Part shown: positions 57,114 through 63,535 of the stretch, in pieces | How the letters are laid out: every line of letters begins with the position of its first letter | Position numbering within the stretch: position 1 is the first letter of the stretch | NCBI GenBank assembly: GCA_024707145.1 | Contig: JANQAI010000008.1 | Coordinates: 124,001 to 188,000, forward strand | Length of the DNA stretch: 64,000 nt | Reading direction: 5' to 3' | Source: Magnetospirillum sp. | GTDB lineage: Bacteria > Pseudomonadota > Alphaproteobacteria > Rhodospirillales > Magnetospirillaceae | The notes under the pieces: generated by a model | Databases searched by the model: none | Told to the model about the DNA's origin: nothing | What the model saw: only the letters and a program-made list of their open reading frames with translations | Translations under genes and position numbers: made by a program

Positions 57114-57117
<4 letters not shown>

Positions 57118-59579
57118 CGGAAACCCGGATGCCCCCCGCCCCTCTGTTCTCCACCCTCCGCGCCCGGCTGACGCCGCTGACCCGTCATCGCCTGGTGGCG
57201 GCGGTGCTCGCCCCCGTATTGGCGCTGGTGGCGTTTTCGGCCTATGTGGTCATCGAGAAGCTGGACGCCTACCGCCGCAGCGCCGACCTGCTGGTGGCCG
57301 CCCAGGTGGCGCGGGCCGCCCACGGACTGGCCCGCGAACTGGAGGACGAGCGCCGCTGGTCGGCCATGTATGTGGGCACCGACCGCGAATCCTGGCGCCA
57401 GGACATGGAGGAGCAGCGCAACGCCACCGACGACCGCGCCACGGACTTCCGCGCCCTGGCGCTGTCGCCCAAGGCCGCCAACCTGTTCGGGCGCCAGCGC
57501 AACGAACTGGGGCTGGGCGACTTGGACCGGCTGCGCGCGGTGGTGGACGGCGACGGCGACCTGCACGAGGTGCTGGAGGGCTACAACACCCTCATCTCGG
57601 TGATGATTTCCTCGGCCTCCAAACTGGCAGAGGAGGACGTGGGCAACCTGATCTCCGCCTACATGGACCTAGGCCAGGTCAAGGACCGCCTGAGCCGCCA
57701 ACGCTCCATCGGCACCGGCTGGTTGCTGCAGGGCCGCGCCGACCGCGACCTGCTGCGCCTGTTCGCCGAGGCCGAGGCGGAGCGCAAGGCGTTCCTCCAG
57801 ACCTTCCGCGCCCACGCCTCGCTGCGCCAGCAGCAGGCCTATGACGACACCGTGCGCGGTCCCATCCTGGACGAAATCGAGCGGCTGCACCAGTTGGCCA
57901 CCGCCGGCCATCTGGGGCCGGCCGACGCCGACATCTGGAACCGCGCCCACCTGACCCTGATCGACCTGGTGGGCCATGCGGAAGAGCGGCTGGCCACCGA
58001 CATGGAAAACGTCATCCACCGCAAGCTGGTTTCGGCCCAGGTGGCGTTCTATCTGGTGGTCGTAGTGGTGGTGGCGCTGGTCACGTTCTCGCTGGAGGCG
58101 TTGCGCCGCAGCGAGCGCCGCGCCGTGGTCGCCGAGGAGGAAAGCCGCAAGCTGTTCCGCGCGGTGGAGCAGAGCCCGGTTTCGGTCATGATCACCGACA
58201 CTGGCGGCCTGATCGAATACGTCAACCCGGCCTTCACCCGCATGACCGGCTACAGCCGCGAGGAGGCTCTGGGCCGCAATCCCCGCCTGCTGCGCTCGCT
58301 GGAGACGCCGCCCGAGGTCTACGCCGCCATGTGGCAGCAGATTTCCGAGGGCCATGATTGGCGCGGCGAACTGGTCAACCAGCGCCGCGACGGCACCGCC
58401 TATTGGGAACAGATGACCATCGCCCCGGTGAAGAACGCCGCTGGCGGGGTCGAGAATTTCATCGCCATCAAGGAAGACATCACCGAGGTGCGCACCCTGC
58501 GCCAGGCGCTCGAACGGGAGCACGCCAACGTGCGCCGGGTGCTGGAGGCCATCCATGACGGCATCGCCCTGACCGATGGCGAGGGCGGCTTCCAGTTCGC
58601 CAACCCCGCCTTCGTCGCCCAGTTCGGCGCCATCGAGGGGCGCGAGGCGGCCGAGGTGTTCGAGGCGCCCCTGCCCGCCCCCGCCGCCGCCGAGGCCGCT
58701 TGCCGGGCCGAATGGCGCTCGCCGCGCAGCGGCCGCATCTACGACCTCACCGCCGCCTGGGTGCACAATCCCGATGGCAGCCGGTCGCTGCTGCAGGTCT
58801 TCCACGACATCACCGTGCGCAAGCAGGCGGAAGAGGCGCTGAACAACGCCCGCGAGGCCGCCGAGCTGGCCAACCGCGCCAAGAGCGAGTTCCTGGCCAC
58901 CATGAGCCACGAGCTGCGGACGCCGCTCAACGCCATCATCGGCTTCTCCGAGATCATCGAGCAGCAATTGCTGGGGCCGGTGGGCCAGGAGCAGTACCGG
59001 GACTACGCCCACGACATCAATGATTCGGGCAAGCACCTGCTGCAGCTGATCAACGACATCCTGGACGTGGCCCGGCTGGAAGTGGGACGCGTCGTCCTGC
59101 GCGAGGAGCGGGTCAGTGCCGCCGCCATCGTCCAGTCCTGCCTGGGGATGGTGCGCGAGCGCGCCGAGGCCGGTGCCGTCACCGTGGCCTGCGACCTGCC
59201 CGAGGGGTTGCCCTTCCTGTGGGCCGACCCGCGCCGGCTGAAGCAGATCCTGGTCAACGTGCTGGGCAACGCGGTCAAGTTCACCCCGCCGGGCGGCAAG
59301 GTCTCGGTGTCGGTGCGGGCCGATCCCAAGGGGCTGGCCATCGCCATCGCCGATACCGGCATCGGCATCGCCCCCGAGGACCTGGGCAAGGTGATGGCGC
59401 CGTTCGGTCAAGCCGATTCCGGCATGGCCCGCCGCTACGAGGGCAGCGGCCTGGGCCTGCCCCTGTCGCGCAAGCTGATGGACCTGCACGGCGGCGCGCT
59501 CAGCCTGGAAAGCGCCCTGGGCGCCGGCACCACCGTCACCCTGCGCTTCCCCGCCGAACGCCTGCGCCCGGCCGCCTAG
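57114..59579 (+). CDS. NIT-domain-like sensor with PAS domains and histidine kinase
   Basis: Nitrate/nitrite-sensing-like N-terminus ([14 protein letters not shown]...), PAS ([27 protein letters not shown]), [18 protein letters not shown], HATPase. Confidence 0.9.
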
Positions 59580-59611: not shown

Positions 59612-60073
59612 TCAACCCGCCCCGGCGGAGACCCGCCGCACCCGGCTGTCCTCCGGCTCCACCAGCACGGAGACGGCACGCCTGCGCCAGCCCACCACCA
59701 CTTGGCCGCCCGAGGACGACCCGTCGGGCCGGAACAGGATGGTGCCCAGCCCGTCGCCGTCCGGCTTGGGGCCGGCCAGGGTCACGCCGTCGGGCAACTT
59801 GCGCCAGTGACCGCCCTCCACCCACAGGCTGCGCATGCCCTCGTCCACCCGCAGCCGCACCGGCTGGCCGCGCGACTGGGCCAGGGCCCGGGCCTCCTTC
59901 ATGGCCGCCGCCACCTCATCCGAGGCCACGCCGGCCTTGATCCGCACCAGGGCGGCATCCAGGGCAGCCGGGCTGGCGCCCAAGGCGCCGCCCAGCAGTC
60001 CCACGGCGATCCAGCGGCGCACCCTCGGTGGCGACATGCCGCGCGCGCCGATCATGAGTGGGAGAAAAGCCAT
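59612..60073 (-). CDS. GspH/FimT-like pseudopilin-domain protein without classical prepilin leader
   Basis: AMKEARALAQSRGQPVRLRVDEGMRSLWVEGG...ILFRPDGSSSGGQVVVGWRRRAVSVLVEPEDSRVR resembles GspH C-domain. Confidence 0.6.
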   Translation of the reverse strand: MAFLPLMIGARGMSPPRVRRWIAVGLLGGALGASPAALDAALVRIKAGVASDEVAAAMKEARALAQSRGQPVRLRVDEGMRSLWVEGGHWRKLPDGVTLAGPKPDGDGLGTILFRPDGSSSGGQVVVGWRRRAVSVLVEPEDSRVRRVSAGAG

Positions 60074-60960
60074 ACCCGCGCGGCCTCCAGCCCCTCCTGG
60101 GTACGGTCGGGGCCGATGGACTCGGAGATCACCCGGATCTTCTCCAGGGCGCTGGTCCGCAGGGTTCCATCACCGTGGGTGGCTGCCAGGCTCAGCCACT
60201 TGACCGCGTCCACCGGGTTCCTGTCGCTCTCGCCGCCGCCCACCCTGAGCAGGCCCAGGACATATTGGGCGGGGGCGTACTTGGCCTCGGCAGCATCGTG
60301 CAGGCGGCGGACCGCCTGATCCCGATCGGCCGGCACGCCCTGCCCCTTTAGATACATCAGGCCCAGATTGTAGCTGGCCGCCGGCAGTCCCTTGTCGGCC
60401 GCGGACTGCATCAGTTGAGCCGCCTTGGCCGGGTCGGCGGGAACGCCGCTGCCCGCCAGATACAGATGCCCCAGCGCCGCCAGACCCTGGGGCGATCCCT
60501 GATCGGCCGCCTTGCGGAACCATTCCGCCGCCGCCGCCGGGTCGCGGGCGACACCCTTGCCCTCGTGCAGCAGCTCGCCCAAGCCCACCTGGGCGGCGGC
60601 GTTGCCGGACTCGGCGGCCGGGCGGAACAGCGCCGCCGCGCGCACTGGATCGGGCGCTCCCATCTTGCCCGACATGATCAGTGCCGCCAGCTTGGCCTGC
60701 GCCTGGATGTCGTTGGCGGCCGCCGCCTCCAGCGCCTTCAGCGTCGCCTGTTGCTCGGCCGTGGCCGCCTTCGCCTCCTCCGGCTTATTGGCGCGCGCCG
60801 CCGCCGGCTTGCCGTGAGCGACGGCGGCCTTGGCATGGGCCGCTGGCTTGGCAGAGGTTGACTTGCCCTGGCGTGCCTCTTCGGCCGCAGCGGGGCCGTG
60901 CCAGGCCAAGGGGACCAGCGTTAGGGCGGCGGCCAGCGTCAGGGGCAGGGGCCGTCTCAT
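60052..60960 (-). CDS. Sel1-repeat (TPR-like) secreted protein
   Basis: Repeated AAEWFRKAADQGSPQGLAALGHLYLAGSGVPADPAKAAQLMQSAADKGLPAASYNLGLMYLKGQGV units. Confidence 0.88.
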   Translation of the reverse strand: MRRPLPLTLAAALTLVPLAWHGPAAAEEARQGKSTSAKPAAHAKAAVAHGKPAAARANKPEEAKAATAEQQATLKALEAAAANDIQAQAKLAALIMSGKMGAPDPVRAAALFRPAAESGNAAAQVGLGELLHEGKGVARDPAAAAEWFRKAADQGSPQGLAALGHLYLAGSGVPADPAKAAQLMQSAADKGLPAASYNLGLMYLKGQGVPADRDQAVRRLHDAAEAKYAPAQYVLGLLRVGGGESDRNPVDAVKWLSLAATHGDGTLRTSALEKIRVISESIGPDRTQEGLEAARVWLFSHS

Positions 60961-61328
60961 TGCCCGCCCCCGGTGGGATAGGTGTTGTTGTTGCCACCAT
61001 TGCCGCCGCCGGTGGCGGTGGAAGACTGGCTGCCCGAGGTGCTCTGGCTGGAATTGGTGTTGAGGTTGGCCGTCGCCCCCTCGGAAAGAATTTGGCTGAT
61101 CTGCTCATAATTGCCGATGGTGGTCGAGTTGTTGACCACGGTGGCGCCCGCGCTGCCGGCACTGCTGGCGGCGGTGGCCGACATCTGCTTGCGAAGCAAT
61201 TGGCCCTGGGCATGGAAGCTGCGGTTGGCGGACTGGTAGCTCCAGCCGTCATTGCCCACCAGTTGGGCCTGGGCATGCGGAGCGGCGACCGCCAGCAGCA
61301 GCGCCGTGGCGATAAAAGCATACTTCAT
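60957..61328 (-). CDS. small secreted Ser/Gly/Asn-rich protein (possible fibre component)
   Basis: Signal peptide MKYAFIATALLLAVAAPHAQAQ then low-complexity NTNSSQSTSGSQSSTATGGGNGGNNN; ATGA overlap with the Sel1 gene. Confidence 0.65.
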   Translation of the reverse strand: MKYAFIATALLLAVAAPHAQAQLVGNDGWSYQSANRSFHAQGQLLRKQMSATAASSAGSAGATVVNNSTTIGNYEQISQILSEGATANLNTNSSQSTSGSQSSTATGGGNGGNNNTYPTGGGQ

Positions 61329-61359
61329 CTTCGATCTCCCCTTCCGGCGGGAAAGATAA

Positions 61360-61384
61360 GGGGGCGAGGAGGACCCTCGCCCCC
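61360..61384 (-). promoter_or_regulatory. intercistronic hairpin between repeat protein and small secreted protein
   Basis: GGGGGCGAGG-aggac-CCTCGCCCCC perfect inverted repeat. Confidence 0.65.
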
Positions 61385-61391
61385 AGGGCCT

Positions 61392-62285
61392 TTACTTGTT
61401 GATCACGTTGATCACGTTGGCCGCCGAGGTGGCGGCGTTGTTGACAGTGCCGGCCACGTTGAGGTGCGCCGACTTGGCCAGCGACGAGAAGCTGCCGACG
61501 GCGTTCTGGGTGACATCCACCAGGGCCAGGCTGGTGGCGGAGATGTTCGGGGTCTGGGGCTGGTTGTTGTGATGCGAATTATTGAAGTTGAGGGCGCCGT
61601 TCTGCACCACGGCGGGGGTGACGGTCACGCTGGCGACGTTGGCGATGGCCGAGGCGGTGTTCTCGAAATCGCCGCCGATGCCCTGCACCTGCACGCCCTT
61701 GGCGATGGCGGTGGCGTCAAGCTTGATGGGGTGATAGTAGCTGCCGGCCTCCTGGGTGGCATCCAGCAGCGCCAGGCTGGTGGAGCTGATGTTGACGACG
61801 TTGGCCGCCGAGGTGGCCGCGTTGCTGAAGTCGCCGCCCGGCGTCACCACCGCGTCGAACACGCCGGCGAAGGACTTCAGCTTGCCGTCCACGCTCTGGA
61901 CCGCGTCGACGATGGCGGGGAAGCTGGAGGCGCTGCCGTCCGTGCCGCCGACGCTGATCACGTTGGTGATGGAACTGGCGGCGTTGGTCACCCCGCCGGA
62001 AATGGAATCGGCGACGATGGCGGCCGAGTGCAGGAAGCCCGTGAAATCCTGATCGGCGCAGATATTGGTCAGAGCGGCGAATTCGAGGTCGTTGGGATCG
62101 ATCTCGATGGTGAGGTCGCCACCGGTGAAGTGCCAGTCGACGCCGCAGCAATCGGTGCTGGGGAGCTGCGGACCGCCGCCGCCACCGCCGAACCAGCCGG
62201 CGGAAGCCGGCTGGGCGGCCAGGCCGAGGACCAGGGTGAGGGCCGAGGTGGCGGCCAGCACCGACGCCTTCTTCATGGCTTTCAT
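61392..62285 (-). CDS. repeat-containing secreted protein (candidate surface fibre/adhesin subunit)
   Basis: Signal peptide; recurring N-A-[AT]-S-x-x-x-N-V units (VTNAASSITNV, FSNAATSAANV, FENTASAIANV, VNNAATSAANV); ATGA overlap with the HfaB-like gene. Confidence 0.75.
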   Translation of the reverse strand: MKAMKKASVLAATSALTLVLGLAAQPASAGWFGGGGGGPQLPSTDCCGVDWHFTGGDLTIEIDPNDLEFAALTNICADQDFTGFLHSAAIVADSISGGVTNAASSITNVISVGGTDGSASSFPAIVDAVQSVDGKLKSFAGVFDAVVTPGGDFSNAATSAANVVNISSTSLALLDATQEAGSYYHPIKLDATAIAKGVQVQGIGGDFENTASAIANVASVTVTPAVVQNGALNFNNSHHNNQPQTPNISATSLALVDVTQNAVGSFSSLAKSAHLNVAGTVNNAATSAANVINVINK

Positions 62286-63121
62286 TTGCTCTCTCCTTCT
62301 TTCAGGTAGTTGTCCATGACACTGGTCTTGACCAGGCCGCATTCCGGCGCTTTGGCAAGACCGAGGAAGTCCGTCATGATCTGGTAGACAGCCATCTCGA
62401 CGACGGAACGCACGCCAAGCTGCACGGGCTCGTTTTTCCGCATGCCCGCATCGAACTCGACGAGTTGTGTGCCGAAGAAGCGGAAGACATTGGCTTCCAC
62501 TTCGTAACCGACGATCTGCTTCTGGAGGCTGGTGACGTAGGGGACATCGAAGGTGCGCGAATTCACCACGCGCAGGTCCAGTCCCACATTGATCACCACC
62601 ATGCGGCCCCCGCCGCCGATGCCGCCGACGGCCAGGCGGCCGCCGCCCGAGGTGATGTTGTAGTTGAGCTCGGTCAGCGCCCCCATCAGCACGAAGTCCG
62701 AGCCCCGCACGGTGCCGGGGCGGATGGTGGTTTCCGGGCCGGTCAGCTTCTGCTCGGCCATCTTGGCCTGCGCCAGGGGGATGCGCAGGTCGTACCGTTC
62801 CACCAGGCGCGCCTTCTGGGTCTTGTACAGGGCGCTCATCACCATCTCGGACACACCCTGGGTCAACACCGTCGAGGTGCCGTTGCCGGTGGCCTGGAAC
62901 TGCCCCGTCTTGTCGCCCACTTCGCCCACGGCGAAGACCGGCAGGTTGCTGCCCTGCAGGCGGCCCAACGACACCAGGCAGCGCGAATACGGGGTGTCGT
63001 TGTTGGTGACGGGGGCGCTGAGGAGCGGTTCCACTCCGCCCTTGCTCATGGTTCCTGGCTGGGCGCAGCCGCCAAGGGCAAGCACCGCGAGCCCGATTGC
63101 GGGCTTGAGCAGCCGTTTCAT
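62282..63121 (-). CDS. CsgG/HfaB-family lipoprotein
   Basis: Lipobox LALGGC; CsgG-like core FAVGEVGDKTGQFQATGNGTSTVLTQGVSEMVMSAL...SDFVLMGALTELNYNI. Confidence 0.88.
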   Translation of the reverse strand: MKRLLKPAIGLAVLALGGCAQPGTMSKGGVEPLLSAPVTNNDTPYSRCLVSLGRLQGSNLPVFAVGEVGDKTGQFQATGNGTSTVLTQGVSEMVMSALYKTQKARLVERYDLRIPLAQAKMAEQKLTGPETTIRPGTVRGSDFVLMGALTELNYNITSGGGRLAVGGIGGGGRMVVINVGLDLRVVNSRTFDVPYVTSLQKQIVGYEVEANVFRFFGTQLVEFDAGMRKNEPVQLGVRSVVEMAVYQIMTDFLGLAKAPECGLVKTSVMDNYLKEGESK

Positions 63122-63535
63122 CGCGCACTCCTTTGATCAAGGCAAAGACCGGTCGGCCATCCGCCAGCGCGCATGCCGATAAGTATTGGCATGACGCTCT
63201 CGGAGGCTATTTCTGATTTGCGCGTATTGGAGGGGATACCCCTGGGTGCTCTCCGGGTTCGCTGAAATTATCCATTCGATATTCAGCGAGTGGCGATACA
63301 GAACTTAACGCCGCCGTGTCATTTTTTGTAACACCCTTATGGATTAATTTATTCGCCAGGCGGAGAATCCATTTGTCCCGCGCAAGTATCCTGCCGAAAC
63401 TTGCGCATCCCCGTTCGGGATTGCGCCCACCCCTTCGGAGAGCGGCGGCCAAGCCCCTACGCCCCGGGCTGTTGAAATCGGCCTCGTGTCGGGAGTAGGG
63501 TCGCTTTCCTTGTTCAGTTTCAGGAAAAGCCGCCG

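Follow-up and report, generated by a model that had tools for sequence, protein, structure and literature searches.

We describe here a gene group on the minus strand of a 64,000-nucleotide stretch of a Magnetospirillum sp. genome (the window, G000:C3:124001-188000, where G000 is the window genome), which likely encodes a type VIII-like secretion-and-anchoring system of the CsgG/HfaB type and, by analogy with its relatives, probably places adhesive proteins on the cell surface. Five open reading frames make up the group and were all present where the original prediction had placed them: the pore gene (g1), a repeat-rich gene (g2), a small low-complexity gene (g3), a Sel1-repeat gene (g4) and a GspH-like gene (g5). 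They can be regarded as real genes, since homologues of all five occur in other genomes. As judged from sequence comparison, the core of the system is formed by three genes, g1-g2-g3, which are strictly co-conserved and whose products are distant relatives of HfaB, HfaD and HfaA in a changed gene order.

The g1 gene (62282..63121, minus strand, 279 aa), the single CsgG-family gene of the whole G000 genome, encodes a CsgG/HfaB-type lipoprotein with a lipobox read as LALGGC, and the prediction that it forms an oligomeric export pore in the outer membrane is strong. Its product matches the Pfam CsgG family (PF03783) with 100.4 bits (E=1e-28), over the gathering score of 20.8, aligns through residues 64-252 with residues 52-246 of the solved CsgG structure (E=5.5e-16) and reaches a probability of 100 against the HfaB profile in hhalign. 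Against the NCBIfam HfaB equivalog model (NF037935) it scores 176.4 bits (E=6e-52), under the 300-bit cut-off, whereas the Caulobacteraceae copies over this cut-off score 342-455 bits. The maximum-likelihood tree separates the g1 clade, together with HfaB and HfaB-like sequences, from curli-type CsgG (branch support 100/99), and unites all HfaB sequences with HfaB-like ones, among them those of Roseobacteraceae, on a branch supported at 100/100, with the window clade outside. In this phylogeny the window pore clade is distinct from both HfaB and curli CsgG, as one sister group or a grade.

The 85,462 species genomes searched with the g1 protein yielded 41 loci; 36 loci lie on contigs long enough for the core (those of L018 and L028 end early). 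In 36/36 complete loci, gene calling and hidden Markov models (HMMs) retrieved g1, g2 and g3 side by side and in the same order; the g3 HMM family was found in all 36, and the family in the g2 position in 37 of 38, missing from one locus with a truncated contig. Owing to their low complexity, the g2 members were collected by family HMMs combined with positional extraction. A close g1 (E<=2e-100) was present in six of the 61 relatives compared, namely G000, its congener G007, three genomes of the same family (G013, G021 and G027) and one of the same order (G046); the locus L042 is the same locus as in the same-family genome G021. Two other relatives, G038 and G049, gave weak g1 matches (about 4e-6); in the tree, the pores of these two group with different members of the CsgG family. 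Within an even draw of 190 genomes of the class Alphaproteobacteria, g2 was detected in six (G000, G121, G134, G145, G200 and G264), exactly the carriers of a close g1, and every g1 in these genomes has g2 directly downstream (Fisher 2e-11; as with the other co-occurrence counts given below, related genomes are covered and the counts are hence not independent, and the window g2, being part of the g2 profile, does not count as an independent detection). CsgG-dependent secretion with two secreted substrates, as originally proposed, thus gains dedicated exported partners for the pore, constant in all complete loci, the export itself being a prediction. The neighbourhood survey of CsgG homologues likewise upheld the co-conservation of the three core genes, and not that of all five.

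Both partners of the pore carry signal-peptide-like N-termini, as does g4, and neither the g2 nor the g3 group corresponds to a Pfam or NCBIfam family. The g2 gene (61392..62285, minus strand, 297 aa) encodes an HfaD-like repeat-rich exported protein, predicted from its position and from hhalign to be a surface adhesin or anchor. The product of g3 (60957..61328, minus strand, 123 aa), assigned by hhalign and its HMM family, is a small HfaA-like exported protein with the mature N-terminal sequence GWSY and one curlin-like repeat. In hhalign, g2 matches HfaD with a probability of 87 and a score of 51.6 (permuted maximum 20.1) and g3 matches HfaA with a probability of 93 and a score of 47.9 (permuted maximum 16.1), and in each case 0/200 column permutations reached the observed score. 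Identity to the sister genomes amounts to 67-79% for g1, 29-34% for g2 and 36-48% for g3, and such rapid change in the two partners of a conserved pore fits exposed adhesins.

Several points weigh against this reading, in addition to the relatedness of the genomes counted. Low-complexity repeats underlie the links of g2 to HfaD and of g3 to HfaA, and the HfaD-like N-terminal block alone gives a weak score of 18.6 against g2, for a permutation maximum of 15.6. Moreover, g2 also matches HfaA (probability 86.5), because the proteins have an A-T-A-(V/I)-G-N repeat in common, and the window g2 is divergent even from its sisters. The g2 structural model is beta-rich, with a block predicted local distance difference test (pLDDT) score of 66-82 across residues 151-260, and its fold search in the PDB returned no significant match, the best being FapC (E=0.055); the predicted structure of g3, devoid of confidence, was uninformative. 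Profile and fold comparison, which the original prediction had advanced as a check, was productive for the profiles, with the Hfa relatives of g2 and g3, and not for the g2 fold search or the g3 model. What is supported is a common repeat ancestry of g2, g3 and the Hfa proteins, short of one-to-one orthology.

With Hfa-type relatives for all three genes, g1-g2-g3 could be a true holdfast anchor, equivalent to HfaB-HfaD-HfaA and tethering a polar polysaccharide of hfs-like genes. The position of the g1 clade, sister or basal to HfaB in the tree, is in line with such an anchor, as is the match of one g2 family member to the HfaD equivalog model, a weak one (E=0.0037), neither g2 nor g3 of the window having an equivalog-level match. 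Nevertheless, g1 attains 176 of the 300 bits where the Caulobacteraceae range from 342 to 455, the order is B-D-A and not A-B-D, an additional secreted protein gene (c1) and LuxR-type regulators go along with the system, and one genome, G121, holds five g1 and six g2 copies, unlike a single polar anchor. We consider this explanation unlikely.

The gene c1, which encodes a small glycine-rich secreted protein, is divergently oriented upstream of g1 in most loci, together with LuxR-type regulators, one of them with a receiver domain. The window g1 has no adjacent c1 or LuxR genes; the trio of receiver-domain LuxR-type regulator, c1 and LuxR-type regulator is instead located about 370 kb away, at ~557.6-559.6 kb of G000:C3 (L123:5082-7119), with c1 itself at G000:C3:558173-558820, flanked by the two regulators as at the linked loci. 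The trio of G013 sits in the same glnB-glnA neighbourhood. Across the 61 relatives, c1 occurs in six (G000, G007, G013, G021, G027 and G046), which is the exact set with a close g1 (Fisher 2e-8), and the co-inheritance of an unlinked gene with close g1 is why c1 is assigned to the system, with strong evidence from these genomes that it is its fourth part. No model matched the c1 family, for which one member was compared with Pfam only. The unlinked c1 with its LuxR regulators, like the HfaD/HfaA kinship of g2 and g3, had been overlooked in the original prediction.

LuxR-type regulators are reminiscent of CsgD and, with the CsgG-type pore and a g2 model that weakly resembles the FapC amyloid, below significance, could evoke a curli variant producing CsgA-like amyloid fibres. 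Curlin repeats (PF07012) were however found in none of the 27 g2 and 29 g3 members, whereas the same model does match true curlins in L128; no CsgE or CsgF was identified beside the operon, and the pore types split in the tree. Since G027 carries this operon plus a separate csgF-csgG-curlin operon elsewhere, curli and the present system can coexist in one genome. A curli variant is accordingly very improbable in our estimation. The original view that the locus is not a standard csg or hfaABD operon is borne out by the separate pore clade, the score of 176 of 300 bits and the different gene order.

The three exported families share a feature that may explain how the pore selects them. After the signal peptide, g2 proteins show AFDxVDWxW, g3 proteins (A)Q(M)GxxPWxF and c1 proteins AQWNNxPFxF, which can be reduced to (V)DWxW in g2, PWxF or GWSY in g3 and PFxF or PYSY in c1, and this N-terminal motif is the sole stretch that hhalign aligned between g3 and c1. 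Close to the mature N-terminus, 29/32 g3, 9/12 c1 and 21/37 g2 proteins carry a loosely defined aromatic pattern, compared with 7/147 of the remaining secreted-like proteins at these loci; the counts are descriptive, given the crude cleavage-site finder and the kinship of the members inside each family. In the curli system, CsgA binds CsgG through its N22 segment, which by itself directs secretion (PMC7217966), and by analogy we infer that the aromatic motif is a candidate pore-targeting signal. A further point against our reading is the absence of the motif from HfaA (0/22) and HfaD (0/16), and the targeting idea may be wrong.

In the proposed mechanism, g1 would be lipidated and would assemble into an oligomeric outer-membrane pore, as strongly suggested by its family, and g2, g3 and the unlinked c1 would reach the periplasm through their Sec signal peptides. 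The pore would then recognise the three proteins by the short aromatic motif that their mature N-termini carry. By homology, the repeat-rich g2 and curlin-like g3 proteins may assemble outside the cell into an anchor or adhesive, g3 possibly forming an amyloid-like multimer that needs g2, as HfaA needs HfaD. In Caulobacter, HfaB is required for HfaA and HfaD to appear on the cell surface, and HfaD for the multimers of HfaA (PMC6707917). Linkage to c1 suggests that the LuxR-type regulators control the system, as CsgD does curli. The Sel1 protein would be a periplasmic helper in one subclade and GspH a decaying neighbour.

The last two genes indeed show a different distribution. The g4 gene (60052..60960, minus strand, 302 aa) encodes a predicted periplasmic protein with five Sel1 repeats (Pfam, E=6e-36), AlgK being the nearest named NCBIfam model (1e-15). 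A Sel1 gene adjoins the core in 11/36 loci, co-oriented in 10 and on the opposite strand in L056, and these loci are confined to one part of the pore tree. By this distribution g4 is a lineage-specific accessory, added in one subclade. The product of g5 (59612..60073, minus strand) matches GspH in Pfam (E=4e-7), and no GFTLxE prepilin cleavage motif was found in it. Recognisable g5 homologues are limited to L052 and L054 among the loci; g5 is about 50% identical to the GspH of L054, which carries an intact GFTLLELL, and the motif is lost in the window and in L052.

In L054 (L054:11190-17999, G021), genes for a CCP_MauG-like di-haem peroxidase, gspE, gspF, gspG, gspH and a further pseudopilin come after the core and the Sel1 gene, all names but those of GspG and GspH being assigned by reading the sequences; the pseudopilins keep GFTLLE-type motifs, and gspH lies ~6 kb downstream, inside the gspE-F-G-H cluster. 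L052 (L052:5179-8977, G007) retains the peroxidase, gspG, a motif-less gspH and a prepilin peptidase, and L053 (L053:11679-15449, G013) the peroxidase and GspE before the contig ends. GspG was not found in G000 (genome ~92% complete), and among 23 family genomes it occurs in G007, G013 and G021 only, i.e. 3/4 operon carriers (Fisher 0.002). The gene g5 is thus a decaying relic of a type II secretion system (T2SS) cluster and probably stands outside the present system, and the series from L054 through L052 to the window reads as a stepwise erosion of the type II secretion part of the cassette.

A single functional unit of all five genes, including the Sel1 and pseudopilin-like proteins, had been suggested by their overlapping reading frames in the window. 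It is contradicted by the presence of Sel1 in 11/36 loci and of g5 homologues in L052 and L054 alone, by the position of GspH in a gspE-F-G-H cluster ~6 kb downstream or beside gspG and a prepilin peptidase, and by the missing prepilin motif of the window g5. We hold this unit to be the least credible of the explanations, close to discounted, and the claim that the five genes are one system is abandoned, Sel1 being restricted to a minority of loci and GspH a leftover from a T2SS cluster. The comparison of sister genomes led us to reject GspH as a component.

The site itself carries a trace of this history. A NIT-domain PAS histidine kinase gene (window 57114-59579), convergent with the operon, marks the empty site: in ten congeners the NIT/PAS kinase and hemN are adjacent, with a gap of 95-770 bp, which extends to 3,959 bp in G000 and 7,659 bp in G007, where it is occupied by the operon and its appendage. 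In this comparison the operon is a discrete cassette that was acquired or lost as a whole.

Concerning the organisation of the operon, the ATGA overlaps of g1/g2 and g3/g4 and the 22-bp g4/g5 overlap are all real. In a consensus scan, a terminator-like or attenuator-like hairpin (61360..61384, minus strand) was detected between g2 and g3, with 11 pairs over 61384-61360 followed by TTATCTTT, so that transcription may be split into 1-2 and 3-4-5. The divergent g1/hemN intergenic region (63122..63535), the presumed promoter region, has a GC content of 0.56 against 0.68 for the window and displays a single sigma-70-like site, located at 63296-63267 of the minus strand (consensus scan). No FNR box was found between g1 and hemN, and an Rfam scan of the locus gave no element.

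Other loci of the survey deserve mention. In G121, pore-g2-g3 units are repeated in tandem, accompanied by c1 and LuxR genes (L127:2920-17926), and the five pore copies of this genome suggest cargo diversification. The Halomonadaceae loci L038 and L046 nest in an alphaproteobacterial subclade of the pore tree; horizontal transfer to Gammaproteobacteria is likely for these copies. In L049:7375-13477 and L050:7169-12937, an HfaB-like pore is preceded by a small protein and followed by a giant one of 1291-1494 aa; these two loci constitute another, uncharacterised HfaB-side variant. Finally, the CCP_MauG peroxidase and type II secretion genes lie directly 3' of the operon in L054, L052 and L053; within the family this cluster is found in carriers only and is possibly a T2SS dedicated to the haem peroxidase.

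The literature searched contained no description of a Magnetospirillum-type or rhodospirillal HfaB/CsgG system, and this widespread alphaproteobacterial system is apparently unnamed. That it forms a distinct CsgG-type branch, with a separate pore clade, three families of exported proteins lacking a Pfam or NCBIfam model, control by a LuxR pair and a new aromatic targeting code ((V)DWxW / PWxF / PFxF) through an HfaB-type pore, seems to us a little short of an even prospect. An earlier survey of curli took surplus CsgG hits as likely paralogs (PMC3521004); these surplus hits include a coherent separate system. Cargo choice and export by HfaB-type pores are not worked out even in Caulobacter, and with the present group a minimal combination of pore and cargo becomes available outside Caulobacterales, along with a concrete candidate export signal.

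Compared with known systems, g5 belongs to the same family as GspH/XpsH of the T2SS but has no prepilin motif, in a genome without GspG. Like AlgK/ExoR-type proteins, g4 is a periplasmic Sel1-repeat protein, but the repeats alone match, far below the AlgK cut-off. Curli (type VIII; csgBAC-csgDEFG) has in common with the present system a CsgG-fold pore, secreted repeat proteins, a nearby LuxR-type regulator and a candidate N-terminal targeting segment, and differs by its pore clade and by curlin repeats, CsgE, CsgF and CsgC, none of which was found beside the operon. The closest counterpart is HfaA-HfaB-HfaD of Caulobacterales, with the same set of an HfaB-type lipoprotein of the CsgG family and two further proteins, one long and repeat-bearing, the other short and curlin-like; the system would work like this holdfast anchor and descend from the same stock, yet it fails the HfaB cut-off and the hfaABD order. 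The pore lies outside the HfaB clade, below the equivalog threshold, and is followed in all loci by the HfaD-like and then the HfaA-like gene, whereas HfaA is upstream in Caulobacterales; the mature N-termini of the cargo differ, c1 and LuxR regulators are added, and the system is mostly distributed outside Caulobacterales, including in Halomonadaceae.

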